Source: Spirochaetia bacterium 38H-sp (GTDB lineage: Bacteria > Spirochaetota > Spirochaetia > Winmispirales > Winmispiraceae). From it: 64,000 nucleotides of DNA. Position 1 is the first letter of the stretch, and each line of letters starts with the position of its first letter. A model generated the notes under the pieces. It searched no databases and had not been told where the DNA came from. It saw only the letters and a program-made list of their open reading frames with translations. The translations under genes and the position numbers were made by a program. The stretch is from positions 186,001-250,000 of the forward strand of contig JBCHKQ010000001.1 in assembly GCA_039023545.1 (NCBI GenBank). Direction: 5' to 3'. Below, piece after piece: positions 1,167 to 63,954 of this stretch.

Positions 1167-1317
1167 ATACCGAACGGACTTACCGCAGCTTTTGCTGCAG
1201 TTTTTTTATAGGCTGCGGTAAGTCCTGCCTTAGGCAAATGGTTGGAACAAGCGGCATCCACGTTTTATGCCGCCGGAGGCAGTGAGGGGATGCTCTGCAT
1301 CCCCTCACGTTCGGTAT
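1167..1317. repeat. tagged-hairpin element, full bipartite copy (A)
   Basis: The element begins ATACCGAACG (1167-1176) and ends with its exact inverse CGTTCGGTAT (1308-1317). Inside the left tag, a 13-bp stem (1176-1188 with 1213-1225) is followed by the mini-hairpin tail CCTGCCTTAGGCAAAT. Inside the right tag, on the other strand, an 11-bp stem around 1283-1307 is followed by CTGCCTCCGGC. The left stem contains an alternative GCAGC-tttt-GCTGC hairpin followed by a T run (1185-1207), which could end transcription of the cation-efflux gene. It lies between two genes of the same direction, so two facing terminators are not needed here. Confidence 0.8.
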
Positions 1318-1370
1318 AAAGTAAAAAAGGCTTTATTGCATGTCTGCTTTCTCTGTGTTAAAGTCGGGAT

Positions 1371-3161
1371 ATGAATACACATACACCATTTTCTAACTGG
1401 AAGAGAACTGCTACCTGCGGTGAGCTCAGAGCAAGTCATGCAGGCAGCACGGTAATTCTTAATGGCTGGGTACATAGATACCGTGACCACGGCGGAATAC
1501 ATTTTATCAATCTGCGTGACAGATACGGGATAACACAGGTTGTTGTGGACAATGATAGTCCCCAAGAGGCTCTTAAGATAGCAGAGGCTCTTAAGTCCGA
1601 GTATTGTATAGGAATAAAGGGTATAGTAAGAAAGCGGCCAGATAACATGATAAATCCTAGCATGGAGACAGGCGAGATAGAGGTGCATGCCAAAGAACTT
1701 GTGATTTTTTCTCCCTGCGAGGTTTTGCCTTTTACCATAGATGAGAAGACGGATGCAAGAGAAGATCTCAGGTTGGAGTACAGATATCTTGACCTTCGCT
1801 CTGTACGTATGCAGAGAAATATAGAATTGCGACATAAGGTTGCATGGCATGCAAGGGAATATCTTGTGAGCAGGGGCTTCTACGAGATTGAGACTCCAAC
1901 TTTTATACGTTCCACGCCAGAGGGAGCTCGTGATTTCCTGGTACCATCCAGACTCCATAGAGGCAAGTTTTATGCTCTGCCGCAGTCACCACAGCTTTTT
2001 AAACAGCTGCTCATGGTTTCCGGATTTGATAAGTATTTTCAGATTGCACGGTGCTATAGGGATGAAGACGCAAGGGGTGACAGACAGCCTGAGTTTACTC
2101 AGATAGATATGGAGATGAGTTTTGTTGACCAGGACGATGTCCTCGCAGTAACAGAAGGGCTTATGGCTCACATCATGGGAAAAAGCATGGACGTGCAGCT
2201 CAAAACTCCGTTTCCGCGTATAAGCTATCATGAGGCAATGGAGAAATACGGCTCGGATAAGCCTGATTTGCGCTTTGGGCTAGAAATGCAGGATTTTGCC
2301 CCTTATGCGGAGAACTCCGATTTTGGCGTATTTAAGTCCGTGCTTTCTTCCGGCGGAGCGGTTAGAGCGCTGGTAGTTCCTGGCGGCGCAGCCTTTTCGC
2401 GCAAGGATATAGATGAGCTGGAAAAAGCTGCAAAGACCTATAAAGCAAAGGGACTTGCATGGTTTAAGCTTACAGAAGAGGGACTTGAGGGTGGTATCTC
2501 CAAGTTTTTTGCAGAGCAAAGAAATGCTATTATAAGCGGATTGGGAGCAAAGGCAGGAGATATTGTGTTAATGGTTGCGGACAAATGGCAGGTGTGCTGC
2601 ACAGCTCTGGGAGCAGTAAGAAATGCAGTGGCAAAAAAACTGGAACTTATCCCAGAAGGTTCTTTTGCTTTCTGCTGGATAACTGATTTTCCGCTTTTTG
2701 AGTACAATGAGGACGAGGGACGATGGGAGGCTGCTCACCATATGTTTACCATGCCAAGAGAAGAGCATCTTGAGCTGCTTGAGAAAGATCCTGGAGCAGT
2801 AAGGGCTGCTGCATACGACCTAGTATGTAATGGCTACGAGCTTGCATCTGGCTCCATCAGGGTTCATGACCCTGCAATACAAAAGAGAATTTTTTCTGTT
2901 GTCGGATTCTCGGAGGAAGAGGCTGAGAAAAGATTTGGCTTTTTGCTCAAAGCTTTCCGCTACGGTCCTCCTCCTCATGGGGGCATAGCACCCGGCCTGG
3001 ATAGACTTGTTATGATAATGGCCGGAGAAGACAGCATAAGAGATGTGATAGCATTCCCCAAGAACACCGTAGGAGCTTCCCCCATGGATGAGTCTCCGGC
3101 AGAGGTAGATAAAGCACAGCTTGATGAGTTGGGTATAATAATAAAAAAGGAAGAAGAATAG
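1371..3161 (+). CDS. aspS: aspartyl-tRNA synthetase
   Basis: Class IIb aminoacyl-tRNA synthetase that charges tRNA-Asp (or also tRNA-Asn) in the cytoplasm, 596 residues, the usual bacterial length. An N-terminal OB-fold anticodon-binding domain (about 15-110) is followed by the catalytic core with motif 2 (CYRDEDARGDRQPEFTQID, about residue 230), the bacterial GAD insertion in the middle (about 290-410) and motif 3 (GGIAPGLDRLVMIMAG, about 545). The ATG at 1371 gives the standard N-terminus; the sequence just upstream (AAAGTCGGGAT) offers only a weak ribosome site. The gene stands alone between a bipartite repeat element and its own terminator. Whether it is discriminating or also charges tRNA-Asn cannot be told here. 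Confidence 0.97.
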   Translation: MNTHTPFSNWKRTATCGELRASHAGSTVILNGWVHRYRDHGGIHFINLRDRYGITQVVVDNDSPQEALKIAEALKSEYCIGIKGIVRKRPDNMINPSMETGEIEVHAKELVIFSPCEVLPFTIDEKTDAREDLRLEYRYLDLRSVRMQRNIELRHKVAWHAREYLVSRGFYEIETPTFIRSTPEGARDFLVPSRLHRGKFYALPQSPQLFKQLLMVSGFDKYFQIARCYRDEDARGDRQPEFTQIDMEMSFVDQDDVLAVTEGLMAHIMGKSMDVQLKTPFPRISYHEAMEKYGSDKPDLRFGLEMQDFAPYAENSDFGVFKSVLSSGGAVRALVVPGGAAFSRKDIDELEKAAKTYKAKGLAWFKLTEEGLEGGISKFFAEQRNAIISGLGAKAGDIVLMVADKWQVCCTALGAVRNAVAKKLELIPEGSFAFCWITDFPLFEYNEDEGRWEAAHHMFTMPREEHLELLEKDPGAVRAAAYDLVCNGYELASGSIRVHDPAIQKRIFSVVGFSEEEAEKRFGFLLKAFRYGPPPHGGIAPGLDRLVMIMAGEDSIRDVIAFPKNTVGASPMDESPAEVDKAQLDELGIIIKKEEE

Positions 3162-3163
3162 AT

Positions 3164-3198
3164 AAAAAAGGCTGTCTATATGACAGCCTTTTTATTTT
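3164..3198 (+). terminator. intrinsic terminator of aspS
   Basis: Stem GGCTGTC / GACAGCC with a TATAT loop, flanked by A5 and T5ATTTT, directly after the aspS stop. Unlike many terminators in the window it carries no ACCGAACG tag, which shows that the tag is not a general part of termination here. Confidence 0.9.
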
Positions 3199-3316
3199 GC
3201 TCAAAAAAACATATAGATCAGAAACTTTAATTTTTACAATCTTTATTATAAACAATCATAAATATATTTTTGTATGATACTTAGTGCTGCAATTTAAAAC
3301 ATATTCCCAAACCACA

Positions 3317-4027
3317 TTAAACATCTTCTGTACTTTTTATACGGGAAAGAATATGAGAAAACAGATTTTCTATTCTTACTGCAGCTTTTCTGTTGGCAGA
3401 TGCCCTTGAAACTGCCTTTCTTACAATGAAATCCACTTTATCGTCTCCAAGCCCCTTATAATAACCAAGCTCACGTAAGACCTTTTTTACACTGATACTT
3501 GTTTTTTCTATCTGTTCATCAAGGCGTGGCTTCTGACTTTTTCTCATACTGTTAAAGCTTATTCTCATAAGCTCATACAGTACAAGCATCACAGCCTGTG
3601 CAAGGTTAAGTGAGGGATAATCGCTACTGGAGGGGATGGTGAGAATCATATCACAGAGCATGACTTCTTCTGCAAGCAGTCCGTTACGCTCTCTACCAAA
3701 AATAAAGCCCAACTTTCTAGCTTCTAGGCCCGTCAGGATGTTTCCCAGTTCGGGAAGATATACATCAGGCTGCCTATACTGTCCCTGTCTACGGGTAAGA
3801 GCAAAAGAAATATCACAATCTAGGAGTGCATCTTCCAGAGCAGAAACTATTATGGCATTCTCAAGTATGCCTCTTGCATGCAAAGCATACTTGAGAGAAG
3901 GAGAAGAAAGAATATCACAGGCAGGAGAAACCACATAAAGTTCTTTATGCCCCATATTAGCCATTGCTCTGGCTATCATGCCAAGATTCTCGGGTCCCTC
4001 AGGCTCTACAAGAATTATTCTTACCAT
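3317..4027 (-). CDS. SpoU/TrmH-family RNA 2'-O-methyltransferase, TrmJ-like
   Basis: SAM-dependent ribose methyltransferase of the trefoil-knot (SPOUT) superfamily, 236 residues. The N-terminus ILVEPEGPENLGMIARAM is typical of the TrmJ group, which methylates position 32 of tRNAs. The knot motifs are present: FGRERNGL (about residue 110) and IPSSSDYPSLNLAQAV (about 131-146), with the conserved Asn/Ser/Leu-Asn-Leu residues. The C-terminal extension of about 75 residues also fits TrmJ rather than TrmL. It converges on aspS across about 150 bp of AT-rich DNA. Target nucleotide is inferred from family only. Confidence 0.85.
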   Translation of the reverse strand: MVRIILVEPEGPENLGMIARAMANMGHKELYVVSPACDILSSPSLKYALHARGILENAIIVSALEDALLDCDISFALTRRQGQYRQPDVYLPELGNILTGLEARKLGFIFGRERNGLLAEEVMLCDMILTIPSSSDYPSLNLAQAVMLVLYELMRISFNSMRKSQKPRLDEQIEKTSISVKKVLRELGYYKGLGDDKVDFIVRKAVSRASANRKAAVRIENLFSHILSRIKSTEDV

Positions 4028-4088
4028 AAACAGCCCCTGTATTTATTTCTAGTTTATATAAAATAAAATTATTATTTCTTTTTTTGAA

Positions 4089-4118
4089 GTGACAGGTTAT
4101 TATATTTTGTATTATAAT
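4089..4118 (+). promoter_or_regulatory. sigma-70 type promoter for the LysM gene
   Basis: GTGACA (4089-4094), an 18-bp spacer and a perfect TATAAT (4113-4118), with the predicted start of transcription about ten bases before the ribosome site AGGAAA of the gene at 4136. The -35 box is one base from consensus. Confidence 0.55.
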
Positions 4119-4135
4119 TACAGCAGGAAAAAGCC

Positions 4136-5158
4136 ATGGCAAAAGAAATTATAGGAATAAAACTCGCTGACAACACCCTGTATCCCATACTGGAAACAGG
4201 TAAAAAGGCAAAAAAAAGGCTGGTACTTGAGCCTGCAAAACCAGAGCAAAGAGAAGTACATATAGATATATACTCGGCAAAAGAAGAGCCAACAGAACCT
4301 CAGAAGTATATAGGGACCATAACCATAGAACTGCCAGAAGAAGAGGAGGTAAAGGAAATTGAGCTTGTCATAGGCTTGGATGAGGAAGGACACCTTGAAG
4401 CAAGAGCAAGGGATTTGCATTCTGACAATCAACAGAGTCTTACAATAACCATTGCAGACAATATGCAGGAAGATAGTTTGAGTGACTTTTCCATGGTGGA
4501 GGACGAACCTTTTGACAGCTTAGAAAACGATTTTGACGAATTTCCTCAAGATTCCAACAAGGCAGAGGACTCAGAGCCATACGTCTGGGACGAACCAGAA
4601 GAAGAAAGTGATGAGTTTCAGGATAGCTGGTCAGAGACAAGCAGCAGAGAACAGGAGCTTCTACAGGAAGATTTTGCCAATATAAAAAAAGAAAAACAGG
4701 ATGATAAGAGCTACGAATCTTCCCAATTTACAAGATATGGCAATCAGGAAAAAACAGAGAAAAAGAAAAACAGTCTGCCTGCAGTCATAATCGGTATAGT
4801 TATAGGAATAATTCTCGGTGCAATAGCATTGTTTATGCTCTATCCCATATTTAACCATAACAGTAAAGAAGCCATAAAAACAGAAGAGAGCAGTACCAAA
4901 GAACCCGTAAAAAGCATAGCGCCTAGTCCTATTCCAACTCCTACACAGACACCGGTTGCTGAGAACAAGCAGCAGGAAGAAAGCACAAGTATAATATACA
5001 CTCCAGGATGGGGAGATACTTTGTGGGATTTGGCAAAATCTTTTTATGATAACCCCTGGCTGTATCCGGACATTGCCAAAGAAAACAACATAAAGAACCC
5101 TGACCTGATATATGCAGGTAAGCCTCTTAAGATACCCGGCATAAAAAAAGCAAAGTAA
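4136..5158 (+). CDS. membrane-anchored LysM protein with an N-terminal Hsp70-SBD-like domain
   Basis: 340 residues in four parts. Residues 1-110 resemble the beta-sandwich substrate-binding domain of Hsp70: a run of beta strands ending LVIGLDEEGHLEARARDL, comparable to the DnaK stretch DANGILxVxAxD. A strongly acidic linker rich in Glu, Asp and Ser follows (about 115-205). One membrane helix (AVIIGIVIGIILGAIALFML, about 220-240) and a Pro/Thr-rich spacer lead to a C-terminal LysM domain (WGDTLWDLAKSFYDNPWLYP, to LIYAGKPLKIPG). LysM binds peptidoglycan glycans, so the protein likely spans the inner membrane, with the Hsp70-like domain in the cytoplasm and LysM outside. The ATPase half of Hsp70 is absent. 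The Hsp70 similarity is my reading by eye and is less certain than LysM. Confidence 0.75.
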   Translation: MAKEIIGIKLADNTLYPILETGKKAKKRLVLEPAKPEQREVHIDIYSAKEEPTEPQKYIGTITIELPEEEEVKEIELVIGLDEEGHLEARARDLHSDNQQSLTITIADNMQEDSLSDFSMVEDEPFDSLENDFDEFPQDSNKAEDSEPYVWDEPEEESDEFQDSWSETSSREQELLQEDFANIKKEKQDDKSYESSQFTRYGNQEKTEKKKNSLPAVIIGIVIGIILGAIALFMLYPIFNHNSKEAIKTEESSTKEPVKSIAPSPIPTPTQTPVAENKQQEESTSIIYTPGWGDTLWDLAKSFYDNPWLYPDIAKENNIKNPDLIYAGKPLKIPGIKKAK

Positions 5159-5272
5159 TTATGCATAATGCATTGATAATAAAAATAACAATATCATAGA
5201 AAAAAAAGCAATGTAAATACATATAATAAAAGGATTTTTGTGGAAAGTTTTCGCAAACATTTTTTTAAAAGA

Positions 5273-5288
5273 TGGCATGCTTATTGCA
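5273..5288 (+). promoter_or_regulatory. sigma-54 (RpoN) promoter of the 1602-aa Ig-repeat protein
   Basis: TGGCATG-N4-TTGCA, with the GG at 5274-5275 and the GC at 5286-5287 exactly 12 bases apart, as in -24/-12 promoters. The expected transcript start (about 5299) leaves a short leader holding AAGGAGG before the ATG at 5324. Upstream at 5240-5255 lies a partly palindromic stretch (TGGAAAGTTTTCGCA) that might bind an activator; this last point is speculative. Confidence 0.75.
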
Positions 5289-5323
5289 TGTAAAATATAA
5301 AAAACTTTATGAAGGAGGTTCTG

Positions 5324-8300
5324 ATGAAACCAGAACGTCTGTTGATCATCTTGTGTCTTCTTGTTGCTTTCCTTTTTCCCGCCTTTGCAGGTGGAGAAAC
5401 AGAATGGCAGGAAGTGGACGGAAAAGAAAACTGGAAAAAGAGCATAGACATAAAAGAATCAAAACCAGGCACATACAACGTCATAATAAAAGGCACAGAC
5501 TTTGCAGGAAACGAGTTTATAGAGGGACCCTATAATCTTGTTATAGACCCTGATTCTGACCTTGCCATAAGCAGAGTTATATCTCCGGCTAACAACCAAA
5601 CGATACGCAACAACATAAATATTATAGGAATTGCGGTAGACGATGATGGTATATCCAGAGTAGAGGTAAAAATAGATGAGGGACCATACAGACAAGCAGA
5701 AGGTACGGATTACTGGAACATGTATGTGGATGCCACCACACTCAAAGATGGAGAACACACAATAACTGTAAGGGCAATAGATATCAACGGACTCCCCGGC
5801 ACAGAGTATACAAGTACATTTCTTCTGGACACAGAACCTCCTCAAATGACAATAGACTCCCATAAAAATGGAGCTCTTGTAAGCAAAAAAATAGTAATCA
5901 AGGGAACAGTAAAAGATGCCAATCAGGTAAAAAGCCTTTCGGCCACATTTCCTTCTTATACGGTAAAGAAAAAAGATAAAGAAGAAACCATCCCAGAAAC
6001 AACTCAAAACGTAAAAATAAAATACGACAAGAATGAGAATATATACTCATTCGAACTTCCCATAGAAACACAGAAACTTCCTGACGGCCCCATGGTTCTT
6101 TGGTTTAAGGCTACCGATATGACCGGTACAGAATCTGCAGTACCATTTCTCATATTCATAGATAACAAGGAGCCGGAAATAAGCATAATATCCCCGGAAG
6201 AAGAAAGCCCGGTATACGGTATGGTACAGATAACAGGAACAATCAACGATGCAATAGGCGTAAAACGCATGTGGTATACTTACAATAAAGAAGAAAAAGA
6301 CATCCCTCTTACACCGGGAAACCCATACTGGACAATACAGTTTGATGTAAGTGAAGATACTACAGGTACAATAGAAACTATTATCTTTGCAGAAGATGTA
6401 AGCGGCAATATAACAAATAAAAAAATCAAACTCAAAAACGACAGAGAGGGGGCAAAACCTGCTATAACAATAATAACCCCACAAACAGAAGAAAAAACAG
6501 TTCCTGTCCTAACTAAATACGATGCAATTATAGGAATAACAGAGGGAATCAACCCTCAGGATAAGATAGTAGTGGAGGGACTGGGTGAAGGACCACAGGA
6601 GTTCCCTGCAAAATCGGGATTTTATATTCCTCTGTCCGGATTAAGCCCAGGTAAATACAACATAAATATCACAGCCGTTGACAGTCTTGGATTTGAAAGC
6701 AAACCTCTTAAGTACAGCTTTGAGATAAGTGCTGATAAGCCAATACTTATCCCAACAGAACTTGTCTATCAGGACACACAAGAGAGCCAAAGCTGGAACA
6801 ACGGACTGCTTTATGATGCATCCAGAAAGGCTGTAATAAGAGGTACAATAAAATCGGAAACAAAGCCTTCCGGAGGAAAGCTTTATACAGGTGCAGACAT
6901 ATGGACAGCACTTCCTTCAGATTTATCAGCTCAGCCGGATATACCAAAGACAGCAAGCGAAAGCAGCCTGAAAATAAGTCCTACAGAGGAAGCAAACACC
7001 TATACTTTTGAAGCAAGCCTTCCTCAAAAAGCAGGAAATGGCAGTCTCCCTGCTATATTTGTAATCAATAATGCAGACAAAAGTATATCAGTTTTCCCCC
7101 AGATAATAAGTTATCAGGCTCCACCACCTGCAAAGGGTAAGGAGCAAATTCCTCCAGCCAAGCCCAATCAGCTTCTTATTCTAGACTATAGAATCAATAA
7201 AGGTAATATTCTTCTTACGGATAAGACACCGCTTGGCTTGTACTTCTCAGGAAATAGTATATCGGCAGTAAGCGTGGAACCACAGGAAGCAGAAAATCTG
7301 ATATCTGTGAAGAAAATAGGAAATCATGTTCTGCTAACAGCAAAATCCAGCGGAGAAGTATCCGGATTTAGCATAATAGTCAAAGACAAAAGCGGTAAAG
7401 AATACAAAACACCCACATACAAATTAACAGTGGATTTGGGATTGCCCTCGTTTACAATAAGCTCACCTGTTGCAAATCTCTATACCAATCAGGAAATAAT
7501 ATTGTCAGGTACGGCTCAGGACGATCTGGCAGTAGCGTCGCTGCAATATCGTATAGATGGTCTCGGGAAGTGGAATAGTATAATACTAACCGACAACAGT
7601 TTTGAAACAACAATAAGCTCAAGTGCATTAAAACCGGGCGCACACATACTGGAAGTAAGGGCAATAGATAAAGCTGGCAATATATCTGTAAAAAGACAGT
7701 CTTTCTTCTTTGATGCTACAGCACCAAAAATTGCTTTTATAACTCCAAGAAGCCAGGATAAAATTAACGGAACAATAAGGGTAACAGGAATAGTGAGCTC
7801 AGAAAGTCCTATAGAATCCGTAACATATTCTACAGATGGAGGAGAGACCAAGCAAAATGTTTCTCTTTCAAACAATATGTTTACTCTTCTCATAGACTTT
7901 ACAAGCCTTGCAAGAGAAGAGAAGATTCTTACGTTCACCACACAAGATAAGGCCGGTAACATCCAAGACATAGAACTTAAACCCAATATAGATTTTGCAA
8001 AAGACATTCCTGTTGTACAAATACAGACTCCGGAAGAGGCAAGCACTATAACAACGGATGTGACGGTATCTGGCATGGTATTTGATGATGACGGAATAGA
8101 CAGAATATACTGGAGACTGGATGAAAATCAGTGGCAGGAGATACCTGCAGAACACAACTTTGCAATAAATCTGCCTATCTCAAGCCTAACAGATAACGAA
8201 CATACAATTCAAATCTATGCAAAGGACATATTTGGTATAGAAAGCGAACCCGTTACAAGAACTATACGAGTAAGCCTCAAGGAACCTGAGGCAATACTAA

Positions 8301-10132
8301 CCTCACCTACAGTTGATACTACTATCAAGGGCAGCATAGAACTCAAAGGAACCGCCTTTGATAACAATGGTATGGACTCTATACTATTGTCACTGGATAA
8401 TGGAACCAGCTATAAGAAAGCAGAGCTAAACGTAGAAGGGACAGAATGGACATATCCTCTGGACACAACACTACTCAAAGATGGAACATATGCAATACAG
8501 ATACTTGCACGTGATGCATACGGCATAGAAGCCAGCTACTCAGCACTTATAAATATTGATAACACCCCTCCTGAGCTTAACATAAGCTCACCAGAAGAAG
8601 CTGCAAATGCTGCAGGAAAACTAAAACTATCTGGCAGAGTATCTGACAACATAGACTTACAATCTTTTATTGCTGAGATAGAACCAATAAACAATGCAAA
8701 AGAAACAAAGACAATAGAACTTCCTACAGACAACATAATTAACCAAGAAATAGACCTGTCGAATCTTGAGCCAGGCTGGTATAATATAAGAATAACAGCA
8801 CAAGATAAAGCAGGAAACACAAGCATAACAGATAGGAATCTAAATATAGTAGATCAACTCAACAATTCCTCTGTGAGAATATTATTTCCCGAGCCCGGCA
8901 GCACGGTACACGGACCTGTGACAGTATCCGGTATTGCTGTATCAAGTACTCCCGTAGAAAAAGCACAGCTCTATGTTGGAGACAGATTTATAGATGCCGT
9001 AACCGTTGATACACGAGGATATTTTAGCTACACAATAGATCCCAAAGTGCTTACGGACGGAGAAATAATTATAAAAGCAGCAATAGCCCAAGGAGACAAT
9101 AATAAAACAGAAAGCAATCCGGTAAAAATAATGTACCAAAAGCTGGGACCATATATCAGCATAACAAGCCACAATATGGGAGCACTGCTTTCCAACAGAC
9201 CATGGATAGAAGGAATAGCAGGTTACAACAGCAACCTTGATCCGGAAAATCCGGATGATAAGAAAAAACTCAAAGAACTGGAAGTTAAAAAACTGGAAGT
9301 AAGCCTAGACAACGGAAGAACCTTTACGGAAATAGCTGCAAGAGAAAACTGGAAATACAGAGTAGAAACAGGAATGCTTCAAAACGGACCTTTGCCAATA
9401 ATAATAAAAGCAACATATAAAAATGGAGAAGTAGCAGTAGAAAGAACCCTCTTTATAGTCGATAAGATATATCCTGTTGTAAAGCTACTCAATCCGCAGG
9501 AAGGAAACTACCTTAACACAGAAGCAGAATTTATAGGAACAGCTGAAGACAACTTCGGTATAAAAGATATACAGATAAGCCTCAGAGAAGGTGACAAAGC
9601 AGGATATGAGATACCACAGTTTATACAAGGCATGTATCTAGACGCACACTTCCTTGGAATGACCTACTACAAAGTAGGACTGGGACTTACATTCTTTGAC
9701 AACAACGTCAAGCTGCAGGCAAGTTATGGCATTGGCCCGCAGACAACAGAAGACGGCAAAAGCGCACGCTTATCTGGACAGTTTATAAGCGGCAAACTGC
9801 TAGCAAGCCTTTTCTACCTCCCCTTTGAGTCCATACTTGGCCCGGATTGGGACTGGCTATCTCTCAAGGTGGCCCTAGGCGCAGACTTTAGCTACATAAT
9901 CCTGTACAACCCTATCACAGTAGAAAGTGCGACCGGCACCAATACAATAAACACCGTAGTACTAAGCGCCATAATCGGCCAGCTAGAATTCCCAATAGTA
10001 GAAGTAAAAGGCTTCCAGGCATTCCACACATATAGCCTGTACGCAGAACCGGAAGTATGGTTTATTCCATCCGATGTAGACCCCAAGATAGTACCCAAGA
10101 TAACATTTGGACTCCACACAGTAATCTTCTAA
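5324..10132 (+). CDS. giant secreted Ig-like repeat protein with a barrel-like C-terminus
   Basis: 1602 residues. The ATG at 5324 is chosen because AAGGAGG (5311-5317) sits just upstream; the in-frame ATG at 5309 would put that ribosome site inside the gene. A signal peptide (LLIILCLLVAFLFPAFAGG) is followed by about twelve to fifteen Ig-like domains of roughly 90 residues. They share a pattern such as DDDGISRVEVKID ... DGEHTITVRAIDINGLPG, the type often seen in adhesins. The last 170 residues differ: alternating hydrophobic strands (MTYYKVGLGLTFF, KVALGADFSYIIL) ending in Phe, which looks like an outer-membrane beta-barrel anchor. It is read from a sigma-54 promoter and ends at a tagged terminator. 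Likely a surface adhesin or structural protein; ligand unknown. Confidence 0.8.
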   Translation: MKPERLLIILCLLVAFLFPAFAGGETEWQEVDGKENWKKSIDIKESKPGTYNVIIKGTDFAGNEFIEGPYNLVIDPDSDLAISRVISPANNQTIRNNINIIGIAVDDDGISRVEVKIDEGPYRQAEGTDYWNMYVDATTLKDGEHTITVRAIDINGLPGTEYTSTFLLDTEPPQMTIDSHKNGALVSKKIVIKGTVKDANQVKSLSATFPSYTVKKKDKEETIPETTQNVKIKYDKNENIYSFELPIETQKLPDGPMVLWFKATDMTGTESAVPFLIFIDNKEPEISIISPEEESPVYGMVQITGTINDAIGVKRMWYTYNKEEKDIPLTPGNPYWTIQFDVSEDTTGTIETIIFAEDVSGNITNKKIKLKNDREGAKPAITIITPQTEEKTVPVLTKYDAIIGITEGINPQDKIVVEGLGEGPQEFPAKSGFYIPLSGLSPGKYNINITAVDSLGFESKPLKYSFEISADKPILIPTELVYQDTQESQSWNNGLLYDASRKAVIRGTIKSETKPSGGKLYTGADIWTALPSDLSAQPDIPKTASESSLKISPTEEANTYTFEASLPQKAGNGSLPAIFVINNADKSISVFPQIISYQAPPPAKGKEQIPPAKPNQLLILDYRINKGNILLTDKTPLGLYFSGNSISAVSVEPQEAENLISVKKIGNHVLLTAKSSGEVSGFSIIVKDKSGKEYKTPTYKLTVDLGLPSFTISSPVANLYTNQEIILSGTAQDDLAVASLQYRIDGLGKWNSIILTDNSFETTISSSALKPGAHILEVRAIDKAGNISVKRQSFFFDATAPKIAFITPRSQDKINGTIRVTGIVSSESPIESVTYSTDGGETKQNVSLSNNMFTLLIDFTSLAREEKILTFTTQDKAGNIQDIELKPNIDFAKDIPVVQIQTPEEASTITTDVTVSGMVFDDDGIDRIYWRLDENQWQEIPAEHNFAINLPISSLTDNEHTIQIYAKDIFGIESEPVTRTIRVSLKEPEAILTSPTVDTTIKGSIELKGTAFDNNGMDSILLSLDNGTSYKKAELNVEGTEWTYPLDTTLLKDGTYAIQILARDAYGIEASYSALINIDNTPPELNISSPEEAANAAGKLKLSGRVSDNIDLQSFIAEIEPINNAKETKTIELPTDNIINQEIDLSNLEPGWYNIRITAQDKAGNTSITDRNLNIVDQLNNSSVRILFPEPGSTVHGPVTVSGIAVSSTPVEKAQLYVGDRFIDAVTVDTRGYFSYTIDPKVLTDGEIIIKAAIAQGDNNKTESNPVKIMYQKLGPYISITSHNMGALLSNRPWIEGIAGYNSNLDPENPDDKKKLKELEVKKLEVSLDNGRTFTEIAARENWKYRVETGMLQNGPLPIIIKATYKNGEVAVERTLFIVDKIYPVVKLLNPQEGNYLNTEAEFIGTAEDNFGIKDIQISLREGDKAGYEIPQFIQGMYLDAHFLGMTYYKVGLGLTFFDNNVKLQASYGIGPQTTEDGKSARLSGQFISGKLLASLFYLPFESILGPDWDWLSLKVALGADFSYIILYNPITVESATGTNTINTVVLSAIIGQLEFPIVEVKGFQAFHTYSLYAEPEVWFIPSDVDPKIVPKITFGLHTVIF

Positions 10133-10142
10133 AAAATAAAAA

Positions 10143-10184
10143 ATACCGAACGAGGCCATCTCGAAAAGATGGCCTCTTTTTTTT
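10143..10184 (+). terminator. tagged-hairpin element (B), acting as terminator
   Basis: ATACCGAACG (10143-10152) runs straight into the stem GAGGCCATC / GATGGCCTC (10152-10176) and a T8 run. It is a single-unit copy of the repeat family and the clear terminator of the Ig-repeat gene. No mini-hairpin tail is present. Confidence 0.9.
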
Positions 10185-10212
10185 ATAATTTAAAAATATA
10201 AAGGAGAAAAAT

Positions 10213-11172
10213 ATGAATAAAAAGAAAGTCCCAAAAACAAAAATAAGCTACAAACTATCAATAATACTATTGATATTGGCATTGATCATAGGATTTGCAG
10301 GATACAAGCTTTTCCTCCAACCTGCCTGGTACGTAGAAGATGACCTCATACCACTATGGAGAAAAGTCATAAAAGAAGCCAATCTAAAAAACTATCCCAT
10401 ATACCTTGCAAAACAGACAAAAAAAATAAAACCAGGAATAATAATCACATACTCTACAAAATATGCAGAGAAAGAACCTGCAGACTGGAACTTCTCGGAG
10501 AAGTTTCCCAAATCATACAATCTCTTATTGGAAAAAGGGATTATAGGAAATACAAGCATCCCACTTCTTGCAGACCCATGGTTGATAGCCCGCAAGCTTA
10601 AAACAAAAAGCCTAGGAAGAGAAGATTTTACAGGAGGAAATAAGGAAAAAATTCTTATAGCAGCATTAAAAGAAGAAAAAACATACCAAGCACTTCTTGC
10701 AGAAGCTGCATATTTTTCTGGCACACAGGATATAAACTCAGAGGAAGCAAAAAACACACTCCAACGATGGGAGAAAAATATTCTGATCCAAGGAGCAAAG
10801 ACCTTTAATTCCAACGATGCATGGTCAATATTCTTTAGAGAAGATAAGGAAAGATGGTTGTTTACTTCTCTCAGCTCTGTTTCAGCACAGGATGCTGACA
10901 AAACAGGCCTAATAGCTCTGGATAGATTCCCAGATCCATACAGCGCAAAACAGTATCTCCTTCCTATTAGAATATTATGGGCACATTCAACCAGTAATAA
11001 TACTGGTTTACGCAAGCTTCTTGAAAAACTATCGGAAACAGAAACACAGGAAGTATTGGCAAAACATACTGGCCTTGTCCCTGCAAACATCAAGGCAAAC
11101 CCTGCAAATCCTCCCGCTATGCAGGCAAAAAGAGCATGGCTCTCCTCCACTCACCTGTTTTTGATAGATTAA
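10213..11172 (+). CDS. membrane-anchored protein of unknown function
   Basis: 319 residues with ribosome site AAGGAG. A basic N-terminus and one membrane helix (LSIILLILALIIGFAGYKLF, about 14-35) place the rest outside the inner membrane. The remainder has the alternating alpha/beta look of a periplasmic solute-binding protein, with stretches such as IIITYSTKYAEKEPADW and YLLPIRILWAHSTSNNTGL. I see no decisive motif and no transporter genes beside it. It is enclosed by the two giant Ig-repeat genes and lies between two tagged terminators, so it is transcribed on its own or by read-through. A role linked to the two surface proteins is only suggested by position. Confidence 0.65.
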   Translation: MNKKKVPKTKISYKLSIILLILALIIGFAGYKLFLQPAWYVEDDLIPLWRKVIKEANLKNYPIYLAKQTKKIKPGIIITYSTKYAEKEPADWNFSEKFPKSYNLLLEKGIIGNTSIPLLADPWLIARKLKTKSLGREDFTGGNKEKILIAALKEEKTYQALLAEAAYFSGTQDINSEEAKNTLQRWEKNILIQGAKTFNSNDAWSIFFREDKERWLFTSLSSVSAQDADKTGLIALDRFPDPYSAKQYLLPIRILWAHSTSNNTGLRKLLEKLSETETQEVLAKHTGLVPANIKANPANPPAMQAKRAWLSSTHLFLID

Positions 11173-11221
11173 AAAGCACACAACTTACAAAAACAATAGA
11201 TATTGCAAGCCCTACAAAAAA

Positions 11222-11255
11222 GAGGCGGAGCTTTTCGCTCCGCCTCGTTCGGTAT
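11222..11255 (-). terminator. tagged-hairpin element (C), terminator of the giant lipoprotein gene
   Basis: Read on the minus strand: ATACCGAACG (11255-11246), stem GAGGCGGAGC / GCTCCGCCTC, then T6. It follows the stop of the minus-strand gene by a few bases. The gene at 10213 ends on the other side of the same hairpin, so it may serve both genes. Confidence 0.9.
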
Positions 11256-11263
11256 AATCGTTA

Positions 11264-14200
11264 TTATTTTATGTAGTATGCAACCCTATAATAGTCACTA
11301 GAAGCATATCCTATTGCAGCCCACCATGAATTATTGTTACCAGTATCGTATTCTATACTTAATCTCTTCTGATCTACATCATAATTGAGAGCTGCATACA
11401 TTGTCTCCCAACCGTCTATGGTATCCGGCTCGCCTGCCACATCTCCACTCAATGTTTCCAATGCAGGATCATAGTATGCCATTTTAATAGCATCAAACGT
11501 GTTAACAAGAGCAGAATCAAAGTATGTAATGACAGGCATATCATTATCATCGAGACTTATATCAGCCCACAATCCTACAGAGCCATTACTGTCTATAATG
11601 ACAGAGGGACCAAATGTATATGCAGTGGTTCCATTAGTAGGATTGTTGGTAGATTTGAGATACACTAGGTCTCCCGTACTTACACGGAAGAATACCATAT
11701 GAAGATATCCTGCGGAATCTATTCTCATAGATATGTATTTTCCAGAATATTGATAGTTGGAATCCGATGTAGCAAGAACATCCTGTAATTGCCAATTGTT
11801 TGCATTGGTTGGCGTTGTGCTGTTAGATCTTGCGATACGCACAGTCTGTCTGGAAATATCATAATATGCTATTACCGGATATCCGCTGGGATTTACATCT
11901 ATTGCACTAAATTCTCCCGCTGCACTGACTCTTCCTGTTCCTACGATCTGAGTATCATCACCATCAGAGCCACCATCAAGATTTACCCATTGATGCTCTG
12001 CTGTGCTGGCATCACCACTAAGTATATACTGATATTTTAGAGACTTGGTATCCACATCATAGTAGCTTACATGTATATTATCCCCATCTGCAACAACTCT
12101 CTCATTTATAAACTGCATGAGATAAGAATCATGACTCATATTCTCTCCGGCATAGAAATATTTTGAGTAGGTATTGGAAGGAGCTTGGCTATCCCATACA
12201 TACATTCCACCATAGGTAGAGTTACCATTGTAATAGTTGGCATTATAAGCCACAACAGCTCTGTTACCAAAATCGATATCCGTATGCTCAGGAGGATCGT
12301 AGAGGCTAAATATACTTTGCCTTGCACCATTTATAGGAGCTATAAAAGCACTGGAAGAAGGATAGTATGACCATGATGCATATAATAATCCATTTACAGG
12401 ATCTATAGTCATAGCAGGATGTACGGGTTGATCGCTACCTGTAAAATATCCGGAAGAAGTAGTGCCTGTGCTATTGTCAGACTGCCATACATGTACATAC
12501 CTGTCATCTGTCCAGAGCTCAGAACCGGATATATTGTAATCATATTCTTGATTGTAAGGCTCCGTGTTGTCATTAATATTGTTTATTGCCTGCTGTCCGT
12601 TTACTGTCAAAATTATAGCCCCACTTGTAGCATCAGAAGGTAATGTTACAGTAAAACTTGTAGTAGTTGCTCCACCCGGAAGATTAACTGCGGCACTGCT
12701 GCCAAAGGTTACTGTATCTGTAGTGTTGTTAAATAGGTTGAAACCACTTATAGTAACACTGTCGCCCCTCCTGAGGCTGTACCATCCATGTCTGGAGCGA
12801 TAGGTGTTATAATTAGCAGTATCTCTTTCCACATCAGTAATATATGGGACTATATCAGCACTTACACTTGTAGCACTTGCTGAGGGATTGCCTGCCGCAT
12901 CATATACCTGAAAAATAAATGTCTCATTCTGAACTGCAACACCAGACACCTTGGAACTATCCCATGCAAACTTCCAGTTGAGAACATGCCCGTTGTCGAT
13001 AGTAAGATACTCAGAAGAAGGCTCTACCTCAAATGCCCAGTCTGCGGTTCCTGCTGCAACATCAGCTATGCTTGCACTGTTAGCAGAAACTAGCGTGGAG
13101 CCTGACAAAGTAGCTATATCAAAAGCGTTACCTACGCCGTTTCCTCCGTCATATCCAGGTATCGTTACGCTTATTCTGCTTATATTCTGGTTATCATAGA
13201 CTTTCCCCAGGAAGACTACTTTACCACTTATATCAGCATCAGAGTCGGAACTTGCTGCTGCATACTGTACATAACCATGCTTTACAAGACTTGAGCCGCT
13301 TCCTGTTGTTACTATGTTATCCTCATAAGCACTTACGGTTCCGAGAGTCTTGTTGGCATCATTCTGATCTATAGAATACATATTGCCAAAGTCGGCCACA
13401 TTTATGGTAGGAGCTATTATATCTGTATTCTCTATTGTAAGACCTACTATTACAACATCGGCAAGCTGATCTGCCTCTGCTCCGGGATTTACAGTACTAT
13501 CGTAAACCTTGACAATAAACTTCCTATCATTAGCGCTTGCAGAATCAGGTATTCCTGTAAAATCCGTTATTGTAACTACATTACTGCTCAAAGTACTATT
13601 GAGTTCTGTCGTGGTATAAGATATGGCCGTACCAGTTCCTGTACCGGCCCCCGTTGCAACAAAGGTTACGCCTACTGTATTGGAGGAAGCGCCAACAAGA
13701 GTCCAATCCGTATCTCCAAGAGTTTCTATTGTATAAACATTACCTTGTACAAGAGTCGTAGCAGCTACACCTGTTGTTTGCCCTGTTATATACCTTATGC
13801 CATAATATTTTGTACCGTTTCCTCCGCTTGTAGCGACATTAAACTGAAGTCTATTATTTCTTGCTTTAAAATTACTTGTATCGTAATTAGTAGTATAAAG
13901 GCTCGTTTCTTCCGTAAGGTCACCTACTGTTCCATTTGCATTGAGGTCAGTACCAAGAGTTACTCCGGTTATAACTGGTGCATTATTTCTTATATATAAG
14001 TTCTGAGTATAATGTGTTGCGTTTCCTGCTCTATCTATCACAACATAATGTAACGTTATCGGCCCATCTGCAAAGACTGTCGTATCAAAGGTAGCAAACC
14101 ATTCTTTATAAATACCATTGTCAGAGAAACCTTCTACATACCCATCACCATCAAGATCTGTACCTATCTCATTGTTGTCAATCCATATTCCCGTGCTGGA

Positions 14201-21103: not shown

Positions 21104-21141
21104 AATATATCTCCTATGCACAGTATTAGCGTATATATGCA

Positions 21142-24920: not shown

Positions 24921-25016
24921 TATAAAAATAGTTTTCCAAGTCTGACATCGTCTTCATACAATCCTAATTTGTTTTTTAATATTTCCGGATAAGCGTAAAA
25001 ATATGAGCCAAATTTT

Positions 25017-45909: not shown

Positions 45910-45925
45910 AAAATAAGGATGAAGC

Positions 45926-52707: not shown

Positions 52708-52803
52708 TTATAAATTTTCTATTTTTTTATTTTTTTTATAAAAGAAACTTACAACAAAAGAAACTCATTAGCACATAAATCCATGATACTGATTTCATAA
52801 AAC

Positions 52804-52961: not shown

Positions 52962-52964
52962 TTT

Positions 52965-53834
52965 CTATTTGTATTTATATGCTTGTGCAAAGTCTCTAGT
53001 AAGCTGGCTTGCTAGCCATTTTCCCTGCGCACGCGGATCGCCTTTTCTACGCATAGGGCTATTGATTATGAGTGTTTTTCCATCTTTTTCTATTGTATAT
53101 GTATCGGGGTCATTGAGGTTCATCTGCTCCAAGACGATGCCTTTTCTCAGGTGATGATGGATATAGATTATTGTGCCATCCGGCCTGGTCTCCATAACCA
53201 TGCCCACATGGGTCAGATAGTCGTCAAAACGCCCGTTGCCATTGGCATCGTATGTATTATCCCAGAATATAAGGTCCCCCGGCTGCGGATACCGGGTTGT
53301 ATACAACAGATTGCGGTCTTTTAAGATCTCATACAACCGTTTTACGCCATTGCCGCTGTAGTTAGGAAACTCAGCAGAAAGGTCTATTCCTGCTCCGTAA
53401 TAGATTCCCAAAACCACACCAGTACAGTCTAGATTAAAGTGTCTACCACGCACATCCACAGTGTTTTTGCCAAGAAGCTTCTTTGCTTCTTCTAATAGTT
53501 TTCTCTGAATATCCGTAGTGGGTGACGGAAACTCCTGAAAGCTAGCCTTCTTATTACTAAAATGCGATATAATGCTGTTATCCTGTGCGGTTTTACTGTT
53601 CTGAGGCGCTATTACGCAAACAGGTTCTTTTGTAGAAACTTGGGACTGGTCAGGCCATTGCCATCCTGCCTTGGAGATGCTTGTACAGGAAGAAAATAAA
53701 AGAAGCATAAGAAGAACTATAAGAACTCTGATTTCTCCTTTATAACCCATAAACCTGGCACAGAACCATTGAACTTGTTTTTTTCCAAAAAAGATTTTAC
53801 TCAATGGCTCTCTTCTCGCTGTTTTTTTCTTCAT
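52965..53834 (-). CDS. NlpC/P60-like (cysteine amidase/peptidase) lipoprotein
   Basis: 289 residues from the ATG at 53834 (GGGGA upstream). The ATG at 53750 would give a standard short lipoprotein signal, GEIRVLIVLLMLLLFSSC, so the exact start is open. After a variable stretch the C-terminal 160 residues look like a papain-like cell-wall enzyme: Cys in FNLDCTGVVLGIYYGAG, then PQPGDLIFWDN, and the His in DYLTHVGMVMETRPDG. This is the Cys-His order of NlpC/P60 and CHAP domains. It probably trims peptidoglycan peptides. An extra IHHH stretch and DANGNGRFDD (calcium-site-like) are unusual. Confidence 0.7.
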   Translation of the reverse strand: MKKKTARREPLSKIFFGKKQVQWFCARFMGYKGEIRVLIVLLMLLLFSSCTSISKAGWQWPDQSQVSTKEPVCVIAPQNSKTAQDNSIISHFSNKKASFQEFPSPTTDIQRKLLEEAKKLLGKNTVDVRGRHFNLDCTGVVLGIYYGAGIDLSAEFPNYSGNGVKRLYEILKDRNLLYTTRYPQPGDLIFWDNTYDANGNGRFDDYLTHVGMVMETRPDGTIIYIHHHLRKGIVLEQMNLNDPDTYTIEKDGKTLIINSPMRRKGDPRAQGKWLASQLTRDFAQAYKYK

Positions 53835-54591: not shown

Positions 54592-54597
54592 ATACCT

Positions 54598-54638
54598 ATA
54601 CCGAACGCAGGCTGAGCTGAGCATCAGCCTGCTTTTTT
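54598..54638 (+). terminator. tagged-hairpin element (H), terminator of thrH
   Basis: ATACCGAACG (54598-54607), then stem GCAGGCTGA / TCAGCCTGC (54607-54632) and T6. Single unit, no tail. Confidence 0.9.
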
Positions 54639-58399: not shown

Positions 58400-58470
58400 A
58401 TTGCCGCAGGCAGGTAGAGACCGCACCTTTCTTTCTGCTTCTCTTTATGGCGCGGTCTCTACCGTTCGGT
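58400..58470 (-). terminator. tagged-hairpin element (I) after pheT
   Basis: On the minus strand the TAG stop of pheT runs into ACCGAACG (58470-58463), followed by an 11-bp stem GTAGAGACCGC / GCGGTCTCTAC (58462-58414, AG-rich loop) and the tail CTGCCTGCGGCAAT. It ends pheT and also lies at the end of the convergent EamA gene. Confidence 0.85.
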
Positions 58471-60171
58471 CTAATTTTTGTTTATAATGTCCAGGTTTAT
58501 TTCACAGGCAGTACATGGCATGCTTATGCCCCAATTTTCTAAAACTTGCGGGTGGATTTCTCCCATTATGCCTATGTTTGCATTTCCTGCTTTTATGATG
58601 GCACAGCGGCCCGGAATAAAGCGCGGGTCCGTATACTCCTCGAGTCTGTAGTCTATGCTAAGATAAAAAAGCAGGGCAGAAACTTGTGAGCTAACCAGGT
58701 TAAAATCCGCTTTTGCGTCCGCGCTGAGAAAGCCAAGGCTGTTGATAGTGATGCTACCATATGGATCCTCTGCGTTTTTTACAGCTGTTTTGCCTGTTTC
58801 AAATATGTTGTGAGGATAGACTGCGTTGCCGCTTGCAGCCTCTGCCGCAAGCAGGCTCGGAAGTATGGATGGACGTACAAACTCATAGTTCTCGGACATG
58901 GGGTTGGCTACCTGGATGACGTTCTTGTCATCCGTACACATTTTTTCTATGTAGTCTTTTCTGGAACCAAGGTAGTTAAATATCATCTCCTGAAATCCAA
59001 GGCCTATCATGATTTTTTTTACCTGTCTGTTATATTCTTCTGCTTCCGACAGGCGTCCAACTGTAAAATCACGTGGCATCTCGGGAACAAAGTTGTTAAT
59101 CCCGTATCCAATCATGATGTCTTCCGCTATATCCACAGGATGCAGAAAATCGTTTCTGTATACGGGCGGTTTTACTGTTATCAGGTCTTTTTCTATCTTG
59201 TATTCAAGCCCCATTTTTTCCAGAGATTCCCCAATCTCCGGTGTCTTAAACTCCTGTCCCAGCAGTTTTTTAACACTGCCTATATCTATGGATATTTCCT
59301 CCTGAAAATAACACGGAGTGCTTACTTCTCTTCCCAGAGGTGTATCATAAGGATATTTTACAGTAACCGGAAGAATCTCAAATCCTGCATCATGCAAATC
59401 GCAGGCAACTATATTACATGCCAAAGCAAGGGTTTTGATATCGAGTCCCGTAAGCTCTATAAAAAGATTGCTGTCTCCTATCTCTACCGCTCCCAATCTG
59501 GCACTGTTTATGATTGGCGGGAAGCTTAAGACTTCTCCCTGGCTGTCCGTAAGGAATGGATATTTTTTAAAGCCATCCAATATCCAGCCAAAATCCTGCC
59601 CTTTGGGATGCTCCTCAAGTATTTTTTTGAGACTAAGTTTTTTATCCATGCCAAGAGGAACAAACTGCGTGGCATCTGGATCTGCTGCAATGTATTTTAC
59701 GGGATAGCGCAGCATATCCGCACGATATACGCCCATTGCTATGCTCTTTCTCTTCTGTCCGTAGTTCCAGCACAATTTTTCCTGCATCTGGATTATCTCA
59801 CGGAGCATATCATCATCTATGGGCTCACCTTTGATAACAAAGCCAGCTATATAGGGTCTTATATTTTTTAGCTCTTCTGAGACCTCTATAACTCGTTCTC
59901 CTGTATCCTGCTTCTCGTTATACGGCTTAATAAAATCGTATTTACTGCTTGTTTTTGTCCAATAAGAAAGAATTTGTCTTGCAAGACCATAGGTAGACCA
60001 CAGATCAGGCCTATTGGTATCGTTGAGTTCTATCTTTAAAAGCCCTTCTTCTTCATCCAATCCATCCAGCTCTGCCTTGGCAACTGTAAGTATATCTTCC
60101 AACTCCGTGAGGCTGAGTTTTTTTCCCAGTTCGGAGTAAAGTTTTTTCTGCGATATCTCTATCTTAGGCAT
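58471..60171 (-). CDS. pheT: phenylalanyl-tRNA synthetase beta subunit, archaeal/eukaryotic type
   Basis: 566 residues, far shorter than the roughly 800 of typical bacterial PheT. It lacks the N-terminal EMAP/OB domain and the C-terminal anticodon-binding domain. It opens PKIEISQKKLYSELGKKLSL and has B3/B4-like editing and B5 regions. FEILPVTVKYPYDTPLGREV and YGINNFVPEMPRDFTVGRL are of the archaeal type. Spirochaetes are known to carry this form, thought to be acquired by transfer. The ATG shares one base with the pheS stop (TAATG). Confidence 0.93.
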   Translation of the reverse strand: MPKIEISQKKLYSELGKKLSLTELEDILTVAKAELDGLDEEEGLLKIELNDTNRPDLWSTYGLARQILSYWTKTSSKYDFIKPYNEKQDTGERVIEVSEELKNIRPYIAGFVIKGEPIDDDMLREIIQMQEKLCWNYGQKRKSIAMGVYRADMLRYPVKYIAADPDATQFVPLGMDKKLSLKKILEEHPKGQDFGWILDGFKKYPFLTDSQGEVLSFPPIINSARLGAVEIGDSNLFIELTGLDIKTLALACNIVACDLHDAGFEILPVTVKYPYDTPLGREVSTPCYFQEEISIDIGSVKKLLGQEFKTPEIGESLEKMGLEYKIEKDLITVKPPVYRNDFLHPVDIAEDIMIGYGINNFVPEMPRDFTVGRLSEAEEYNRQVKKIMIGLGFQEMIFNYLGSRKDYIEKMCTDDKNVIQVANPMSENYEFVRPSILPSLLAAEAASGNAVYPHNIFETGKTAVKNAEDPYGSITINSLGFLSADAKADFNLVSSQVSALLFYLSIDYRLEEYTDPRFIPGRCAIIKAGNANIGIMGEIHPQVLENWGISMPCTACEINLDIINKN

Positions 60172-61718: not shown

Positions 61719-61831
61719 GCGCTGCTCCATAAAAAAGGGATAAAATATATCAATATAAGAATATGAACTATTGTTACCCTCTATAAGGCTATAGGTCAAG
61801 GTATTAACATAGAAACAAAATACATAAAAAA

Positions 61832-61904
61832 ATACCGAACGGTTTTACCGCAGACATCAAGCTAAGAAAAAAGTAAGCTGCGGTAAAACCTGCCTTTGGC
61901 AAAT
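61832..61904 (+). repeat. tagged-hairpin element (J), single unit with tail
   Basis: ATACCGAACG (61832-61841), stem GGTTTTACCGCAG / CTGCGGTAAAACC (61841-61853, 61878-61890) and tail CCTGCCTTTGGCAAAT (61889-61904). The stem is close in sequence to that of copy A. No plus-strand gene ends here; it lies upstream of pheS and just after the end of the minus-strand gene at 61917, with its tag facing the wrong way to be that gene's terminator. Confidence 0.8.
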
Positions 61905-62588: not shown

Positions 62589-63210
62589 CCCTAAAAACCT
62601 TTATCGGATTGATTCCGTGTCTTATAAGCAGATAAAGATAAGCAACAAGGAATCCTGCTACATGAGTATAGTGAGCTACATTGCCACCTGTACCGGAAAA
62701 AGCATAAAAAAGCTCAAGAGCAGTATAAAGCAAAACAAGAACAGGAGCAGGCACGGGAAGTATGAAAAACACAAGAATCTGGGATCTTGGGAAAAAGGTT
62801 GCAAAAGCAAGCATAACACCAAACAGTGCTCCTGAAGCACCAAGAAGAATAACACCATAATAACCCAAAGCAATAAAATAAAAAAATGATAGAAGACCTG
62901 ATAAAAAGCCGGTAAGCAGATAAAAAAGCAAAAACTCTCTGCTCCCCATAGCTCTCTCTACCTGATATCCAAAAAGAAGAACACCGAGCATATTAAAAAA
63001 AATATGATTAAAATTGGCATGCTCAAACATATAAGTAAAGAACTGCCACACATAGCCTTTGAGCACTGCTCCCGGAATAAGAGAAAGATAAAATTTAGAA
63101 ACAGGAACAATATTGCCAATAAAATAAAACATCAGGTTAAACCCGATGATATACAACGTTGCATTAAAAAACTCGTACTTAAAAGGTCTGCGCAAAAAAC
63201 GTAAATTCAT
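62572..63210 (-). CDS. rhomboid-family intramembrane serine protease
   Basis: About 212 residues, six membrane segments. The active-site Ser is in ILLGASGALFGVMLAF (GASG motif) and the His in YTHVAGFLVAYLY; the HANFNHIFFNMLGVLLFG loop with Asn and His is also typical. It cuts single-pass membrane proteins within the bilayer. The start at ATG 63210 gives a short basic N-terminus; an upstream TTG (63246) is possible. Substrate unknown; the secreted protein that overlaps its 3' end could be functionally linked. Confidence 0.88.
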   Translation of the reverse strand: MNLRFLRRPFKYEFFNATLYIIGFNLMFYFIGNIVPVSKFYLSLIPGAVLKGYVWQFFTYMFEHANFNHIFFNMLGVLLFGYQVERAMGSREFLLFYLLTGFLSGLLSFFYFIALGYYGVILLGASGALFGVMLAFATFFPRSQILVFFILPVPAPVLVLLYTALELFYAFSGTGGNVAHYTHVAGFLVAYLYLLIRHGINPIKVFRDEYFH

Positions 63211-63285
63211 GAATAGAAATGTAAGACTAAGAAGTCCTTTGGTCAATGGTTTACACGCTTAAAGAATACCTATAAGAATATAGTC

Positions 63286-63867
63286 ATGAAATGGGACGAT
63301 GATTACTACACACAAAAAGCAAAAAAAGATGGCTATCCCGCACGCTCTGTATACAAGCTCATGGAGATAGATAAAAAGTATAAGATTATAAAACAGGGAT
63401 ATACAGTGCTGGACATAGGGGCTGCGCCGGGAAGCTGGAGCAAATACATCCTTACAAAAATAGGAAAAAGCGGAAGGCTTCTGTCTATAGACCTCAACAG
63501 GCTGGAAATAAAAGAAGACAGCAGAATGGAAGCCCTGCAAGGAGATATATACAGTAAGGAGATACAGGATAGGATAGCAGAATACGGTCAGTTTGACCTT
63601 GTTGTAAGCGACATAGCCCCAACAACAAGTGGCAACCGCAATCTAGATACAGCACGATCAGAAGCACTTGTGGAAGAGGTCATAGGATTTGCAGAAAAAT
63701 ATCTAAAGACAGGAGGAGATTTTGTTGCCAAGCTTTTTCAGGGTCCGGGAAGACAGGCAATCATGGATCGTATCAGGGCAAACTGGACAAGCGCACATTT
63801 TTTTAAGCCACAGGCAACGAGAAAACAGTCTTTTGAAGTATTTATAATAGGCATAGGTAAAAAATAG
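63286..63867 (+). CDS. rlmE: 23S rRNA 2'-O-ribose U2552 methyltransferase (RlmE/FtsJ family)
   Basis: 193 residues, full length. DYYTQKAKKDGYPARSVYKL carries the first catalytic Lys (in RSVYKL), VLDIGAAPGSWSKYIL binds SAM, VVSDIAPTTSGNRNLD has the catalytic Asp, and GGDFVAKLFQGPG the second Lys, with a Glu in RKQSFEVFIIG: the K-D-K-E set. In spirochaetes more than one FtsJ-like protein can occur, so the exact target is inferred. Confidence 0.92.
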   Translation: MKWDDDYYTQKAKKDGYPARSVYKLMEIDKKYKIIKQGYTVLDIGAAPGSWSKYILTKIGKSGRLLSIDLNRLEIKEDSRMEALQGDIYSKEIQDRIAEYGQFDLVVSDIAPTTSGNRNLDTARSEALVEEVIGFAEKYLKTGGDFVAKLFQGPGRQAIMDRIRANWTSAHFFKPQATRKQSFEVFIIGIGKK

Positions 63868-63910
63868 ATTTTTAATTTTATGACAGAGGCTTTACTCATC
63901 TTTTCCCCAC

Positions 63911-63954
63911 ATGGAAGCAGTACGGGATGAGCTGGCGAATCCCGTACGTTCAGT
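63911..63954 (-). repeat. tagged-hairpin element (K), decayed single unit
   Basis: On the minus strand ACTGAACG (one base off the tag), stem GTACGGGAT / ATCCCGTAC and the altered tail CTGCTTCCATGTGG. It lies after rlmE; no minus-strand gene is visible up to the right edge. Confidence 0.7.

Follow-up and report, generated by a model that had tools for sequence, protein, structure and literature searches.

Tagged palindromes of the repetitive extragenic palindrome (REP) type, with 4-nt GTAG or CGTC tags and rather uniform stems, are known in many phyla, and their CGTC families, for which no transposase is known, include spirochaetes (PMC3733652); they form head-to-head dimers, some with structured spacers, and are placed after genes (PMC3733652; PMC3116915). 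The REPIN or BIME with its RAYT (TnpA-REP) is an extragenic inverted doublet, recognised as a single-stranded hairpin plus tag (PMC3116915, PMC8266576), and the attC sites of integrons have a variable stem read by structure only, conserved boxes, one functional strand and a place just past stop codons (PMC2727003). The bacterial miniature inverted-repeat transposable elements (MITEs) Correia, ERIC and RUP are intergenic, non-coding and about 150 bp long with inverted ends, and the uptake sequences of Neisseria and Pasteurellaceae are short fixed motifs in hundreds of copies, some of them at terminators. Each of these systems resembles in part a family of hairpins with the adjoining tag ACCGAACG in Spirochaetia bacterium 38H-sp, which was analysed in a window of 64,000 nucleotides (bases 186001-250000 of contig 1) and in the draft genome from which the window comes (2.35 Mb, 40% GC, 99.9% complete; 2.31 Mb of it read). 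The family is given an even chance of consisting of lineage-specific, REP- or REPIN-like miniature elements that are recognised as single strands and are not simply terminators.

Like REPs, the elements have an unpaired fixed tag at the foot of a palindrome, hundreds of intergenic copies, head-to-head dimers and positions mostly after genes (PMC3733652), so that the statement of the initial annotation that no family of this design has been described was too strong. They appear to work like a REP but to stand outside the GTAG/RAYT family: the tag is neither GTAG nor CGTC and is 10 nt long (ANACCGAACG), the stems are diverse and covary, the halves are of a long-loop and a short-loop kind and have a TGCC(GNA)GGCA core, no Y1/RAYT gene was found in the genome, and the functional strand has its tag 3′ of the hairpin, whereas GTAG lies 5′. 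From bacterial MITEs they differ in the asymmetry of their wobble pairs and in that the halves also occur alone. No insertion sequence with matching ends, and none in multiple copies, was found in the genome (single-copy DDE transposases were not searched for).

The window has 12 exact copies of the tag (0.37 expected; a maximum of 2 in 100 shuffles) and the 2.31 Mb has 487, so the repeats first noticed in the window are real. Outside called genes lie 453 of the 487, nearly all with an adjoining hairpin (genes were called by a simple codon-usage caller made for this analysis, and their ends are approximate); the intergenic count, 452 against 1.0 expected from trinucleotides, is top-ranked among all 8-mers. 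Inside called genes there are 34 tags against 13.6 expected from codon shuffling, 18 of the 34 with strong stems. The pattern ATACCGAACG was found 164 + 163 times in the genome and the reversed pattern 5 + 4 times; an apparent strand bias of the tag was an artefact of listing, the counts being even at 164/163. About 96% of copies have an A two positions upstream of ACCGAACG, which makes A-N-ACCGAACG the complete tag. When modules were located by the downstream core CTGCCNNNGGC with the tag ignored, 272 of about 341 tags were perfect, 56 had one change and 13 had two, beyond which the remaining sites look like chance; the changes are concentrated in the first half of the tag, and GAAC is nearly invariant. 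Tags of every class are often near stop codons, and 23 directly abut a TAA or TAG stop.

The association of tag and hairpin seen in the window extends to the genome: for about 76% of intergenic tags the next stem exceeds the 95th percentile of random intergenic positions under a strict ungapped scorer, and the tags that fail this scorer mostly have imperfect stems, as judged by eye. Three classes account for most of the intergenic copies: the T-type, with a short loop and a T-run (88 of 453, about a fifth of tags); the short-loop C-type, in which a short loop is followed by CTGCCTNCGGCA (141 copies); and the long-loop C-type, in which a loop of about 25 nt is followed by the same core (187 copies). 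The other intergenic tags are unclassified. T-type and short-loop modules are within the 20-40 nt range of REPs, and long-loop modules are about 70-80 nt long. The core shared by C-type modules is, on the functional strand, a mini-hairpin TGCC(NNN)GGCA whose loop is GNA in 195 of 289 copies. A GNA loop is very stable in DNA; the preference for it is confined to the mini-hairpin and absent from the main hairpins.

As had been claimed, the stems are not copies of a few sequences, since 377 of the 452 ten-mers 3′ of the tag are distinct. Among T-type modules all 75 strong 9-mers differ, and the similarity of the stems is barely above chance level; those of C-type modules are related yet diverged, with visible shared ancestry. 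The paired change from which selection on single-strand structure had been proposed was found again in 29 ungapped short-loop copies, which have a covariation score of 0.556 (0.162 when shuffled, standard deviation 0.018; at most 0.156 in slid registers), 94% of cells paired, and changes on both sides in 10 of 11 main-stem pairs. To judge from the sequences, the tag and the fold are preserved while other positions diverge.

The strand that is constrained is opposite to the one on which the initial annotation had read the structure. Stems were scored with Watson-Crick pairs only, so that G·T and A·C were treated alike, and isolated mismatches were counted. On the tag strand the single mismatches of the three main classes combined are GT:AC = 14:80 (p = 2e-12), comprising 5:28 for short-loop, 9:37 for long-loop and 0:15 for T-type modules. 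An A·C on one strand is a G·T on the other, and therefore the fold is maintained on the complement of the tag strand. The excess of A·C recurs in each class, on both replication strands (GT:AC 7:30 and 7:48) and, among C-type modules, in every gene context, so that the element itself must set it. If mutation were biased through replication or transcription, the sign of the bias would switch between strands, and no such switch is seen. On this pattern, the strand under selection to fold is in all classes the complement of the tag strand, termed F (5′-hairpin-CGTTCGGTNT-3′), and on this functional strand the tag follows the hairpin on its 3′ side. In the usual tagged palindromes the stem is nearly constant, which makes it hard to separate the functional strand, or reading by sequence from reading by shape. 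Hundreds of differing stems on one tag separate the two kinds of reading within one genome, and the A·C/G·T asymmetry reveals, with no experiment, which strand is functional, an approach applicable to any repeat family.

Each copy had been described as a tag with one hairpin, but many are halves of head-to-head inverted pairs of about 150 bp. Short-loop and long-loop modules are commonly the two halves of one unit of about 135-175 bp with its tags at the outer ends, and inverted doublets are over-represented, 85 of the 88 tag pairs less than 400 bp apart being head-to-head; other C-type modules are single, some of them beside a decayed partner. By their orientation, the head-to-head C-type units follow the direction of replication, not that of the genes: with the replication strand assigned from GC skew on the draft assembly, the F strand of long-loop modules is on the lagging-strand template in a ratio of 127:59 overall (p = 7e-7), 56:16 among paired modules, and 59:23 (p = 9e-5) in gaps of the convergent and divergent kinds, which cancel out any effect of gene direction. 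Gaps of 200-400 bp are equally occupied whether codirectional (0.58), convergent (0.59) or divergent (0.56). In a composite, the F strands of the two halves are on opposite DNA strands, so that one transcript cannot serve both; this, with the replication orientation and the direction-independent occupancy of gaps, favours single-stranded DNA over RNA as the form in which F would act. Transposases of single-stranded DNA are known to use the lagging-strand template (PMC6006769).

In the window, nine of the twelve sites listed in the initial annotation have the exact tag and three rest on decayed tags (24343, the mate at 52804, and 63911), while four inverted partners had been overlooked, those at 1308, 25159 and 52952 with the exact tag and that at 45863-45913 with a decayed one. 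The modules of the window are:

1163-1321, head-to-head composite: long-loop tag 1169-1176 (+), short-loop tag 1308-1315 (-); covariance-model scores 46.4 and 50.6 bits; between two + strand genes, upstream of aspS.
10139-10178, + strand, single T-type: tag 10145-10152, hairpin AGGCCATC/GATGGCCT, T-run; a stop at 10132 lies 12 nt before.
11213-11259, - strand, single T-type: tag 11246-11253 (-); the stop of a 3302-aa open reading frame (ORF) lies 10 nt before.
24343-24375, + strand, T-type hairpin with decayed tag ATCGAACA: identified by alignment and listed among the terminators.
25013-25172, composite: long-loop tag 25019-25026 (+), short-loop tag 25159-25166 (-).
33699-33744, - strand, single T-type: tag 33731-33738 (-); the stop of a 2776-aa ORF lies 12 nt before.
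45740-45913, composite: long-loop tag 45746-45753 (+), directly 3′ of a TAG stop at 45745; short-loop partner (45863-45913) with decayed tag CGTTCGATAT; 57.1 and 24.8 bits.
52800-52965, composite: short-loop tag 52952-52959 (-); long-loop partner with decayed tag ATGCCGAACG.
54594-54635, + strand, single T-type: tag 54600-54607; a stop at 54591 lies 8 nt before.
58400-58476, - strand, single long-loop: tag 58463-58470 (-), abutting the pheT stop codon.
61828-61903, + strand, single long-loop: tag 61834-61841; on one side lies the 5′ end of pheS (61799, -), on the other the next gene.
63910-63960, - strand, hairpin module: one-mismatch tag, CGTTCAGT on the + strand.

Both giant ORFs of the window, of 3302 aa (11264-21172, -) and 2776 aa (33751-42081, -), end at most 12 nt from a T-type tagged hairpin; the only domain of the latter is a FlgD Ig-like one close to the C-terminus. 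Elsewhere in the window, a cobalamin riboswitch (71.1 bits) is at 31752-31943 on the - strand, upstream of a TonB-dependent receptor gene. The phenylalanyl-tRNA synthetase (PheRS) of this genome is of archaeal type, which is compatible with the class Spirochaetia.

On F a module reads 5′-TGCC(GNA)GGCAG-variable hairpin-CGTTCGGTNT-3′, its TGCC(GNA)GGCAG part missing in the T-type. If the elements are REP-like, an enzyme or protein would bind F in its single-stranded form, for which replication forks offer the simplest occasion, and would recognise the shape of the hairpin and the sequence of the 3′ tag (core GTTCG). Modules copied in the past through such a single-stranded DNA route would have spread into intergenic DNA, especially right after stops, and T-run copies would double as intrinsic terminators of the upstream gene. 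The recognising enzyme may be of an unrecognised kind or may have been lost. Several points weigh against such a REP-like origin. Near-identical copies are few, so that mobility at the present day is conjectural; strong conservation of the tag in old copies is not expected from neutral decay after insertion; the polarity, with the tag 3′ on the functional strand, is unlike that of GTAG REPs; the assignments of replication strand and genes are approximate; and F might instead act as RNA. Nor was a suitable enzyme found. The genome has no match to PF01797 that would indicate a Y1 HUH transposase or RAYT (the control gave a signal in 5 genomes), no reverse transcriptase and no relaxase, and lacks multicopy insertion sequences, as noted above; a search for Y2 (IS91-type) transposases says nothing on their presence, as its controls stayed silent. 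A screen for HUH motifs gave 36 small proteins, of which ten were tested, and no HUH nuclease was among them. Self-similar DNA longer than 150 bp consists of CRISPR arrays, a few repeated genes and the tagged elements only. The puzzle is that tags are intact in hundreds of old, diverged copies though none of the REP, integron and retro-type enzymes searched for was found.

The tag was counted in 395 Spirochaetia genomes without a second carrier, and the covariance model, applied to 297 genomes, gave three isolated weak matches outside its own. A gapped pattern searched in 84,980 species genomes and also in viral contigs gave scattered single matches, one per contig, at chance level. In the nearest relatives, G001 and G002, the tag is not numerous, and 400 kb of G001 contained no comparable intergenic k-mer; the two family genomes compared have 62% GC at the locus read. 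A contig search with PheS found no relative, and a literature search for the tag sequence gave incidental matches only. None of the genomes examined is thus a second carrier; records of the same species may be missing from the collections searched.

Near-identical copies are rare, their identity stops at the tag, and the best composite pairs are about 78-79% identical over about 160 bp. Two pairs are closer: C3:219054 and C3:221469 share about 83 nt at 97% identity as neighbouring direct repeats around one 743-aa gene, and C1:103067 and C1:115863, also neighbouring and in the same orientation, share 42 identical nt and enclose a type III CRISPR-Cas locus beside fumC (G000:C1:100001-120000, 3026-15863). 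Among the 65 most similar module pairs there are four pairs of neighbouring loci, all in the same orientation, against about 0.3 expected, which points to insertion either at a module or jointly with one; local duplication could be an alternative source of such direct repeats. These loci, with the 23 tags that abut stops, are what would be expected if the modules were attC-like recombination sites, single-stranded and read by structure after genes, between direct copies of which genes and islands were acquired in the manner of integrons; recognition of structure on one strand is likewise true of attC (PMC2727003). However, no integron integrase was found in the genome (only XerC/XerD-like recombinases in the hslVU and ftsZ/dprA neighbourhoods and one broken fragment), the modules have two hairpins per unit and are scattered in both orientations with no one-way cassette array, and the box fits RYYRAAC but not RYYYAAC/GTTRRRY, ACCGAAC breaking the fourth position, so attC-like sites are an unlikely explanation. 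It is somewhat less doubtful, though still rather improbable, that the modules are chromosome-wide single-stranded DNA sites of hairpin plus 3′ tag that spread themselves at forks and also let in genes and islands, CRISPR-Cas included, read by an undescribed single-stranded DNA enzyme in an integron- or REP-like system of a new kind.

Ordinary intrinsic termination, with the tag bound in the mRNA by a termination or 3′-end factor, is nearest to the initial annotation, which held correctly that some copies terminate transcription and others do not. Its strongest evidence is that 69 of the 88 T-type copies are behind a same-strand gene, mostly 0-18 nt past the stop and with a T-run, and about 90 T-run copies after stop codons probably do also terminate transcription. 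However, 142 of the 177 intrinsic terminators found (about 80%) have no tag, a GC hairpin with a T-run in the direction of the gene was found in the T-type class only, and C-type modules, which lack the T-run, are equally common in divergent gaps of 200-400 bp. Tolerance of G·U wobble would be expected on the RNA strand of a terminator, but T-type stems have A·C and no G·T on the mRNA strand (GT 0, AC 15); when terminators were sought by Watson-Crick pairs only, untagged ones had GT 19 and AC 9 and tagged ones GT 0 and AC 5, the numbers being small. Terminators are largely refuted as a general explanation, and this form of the proposal is judged highly unlikely. A functional RNA made from F, such as a small RNA or a 3′ structure with hairpin-CGUUCGGU at its end, for which transcription might start at the centre of a composite and run outwards, would also give wobble tolerance on F, and outward transcription would put both composite halves in F sense. 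It is nonetheless decidedly unlikely, as about 400 loci would need promoters, on strands that bear no relation to the neighbouring genes, inspection by eye showed no common promoter-like motif next to the modules, the orientation tracks replication, and Rfam gave no match at any module of the window. Least probable, and by a long way from a likely account, is a DNA uptake sequence spread through biased natural transformation, a role raised in the initial annotation and now disfavoured. The genome encodes ComEC, the tag is strongly conserved, and known uptake sequences are hundreds of copies of a motif of about 10 nt; but known uptake sequences are common in genes, whereas coding DNA has only a slight excess of the tag, with strong stems at half of the copies there; the tag is outside a stem that is nearly always present, and uptake of double strands leaves the single-strand wobble asymmetry unexplained.

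The type III locus enclosed by the identical 42-bp pair encodes Cas6, Cas10, a RAMP protein, Cas1 and Cas2 and has an array with a period of about 73 bp. A second CRISPR array, at G000:C2:323993-326220, has a period of about 65 bp and contains CTTTAAATCCCATATTTGGTGGCTAAAAC within its repeat. Fragments of Rhs/YD-repeat genes (G000:C8, L323, 2146-4416) include duplicated stretches, each with a similar long-loop tagged module.

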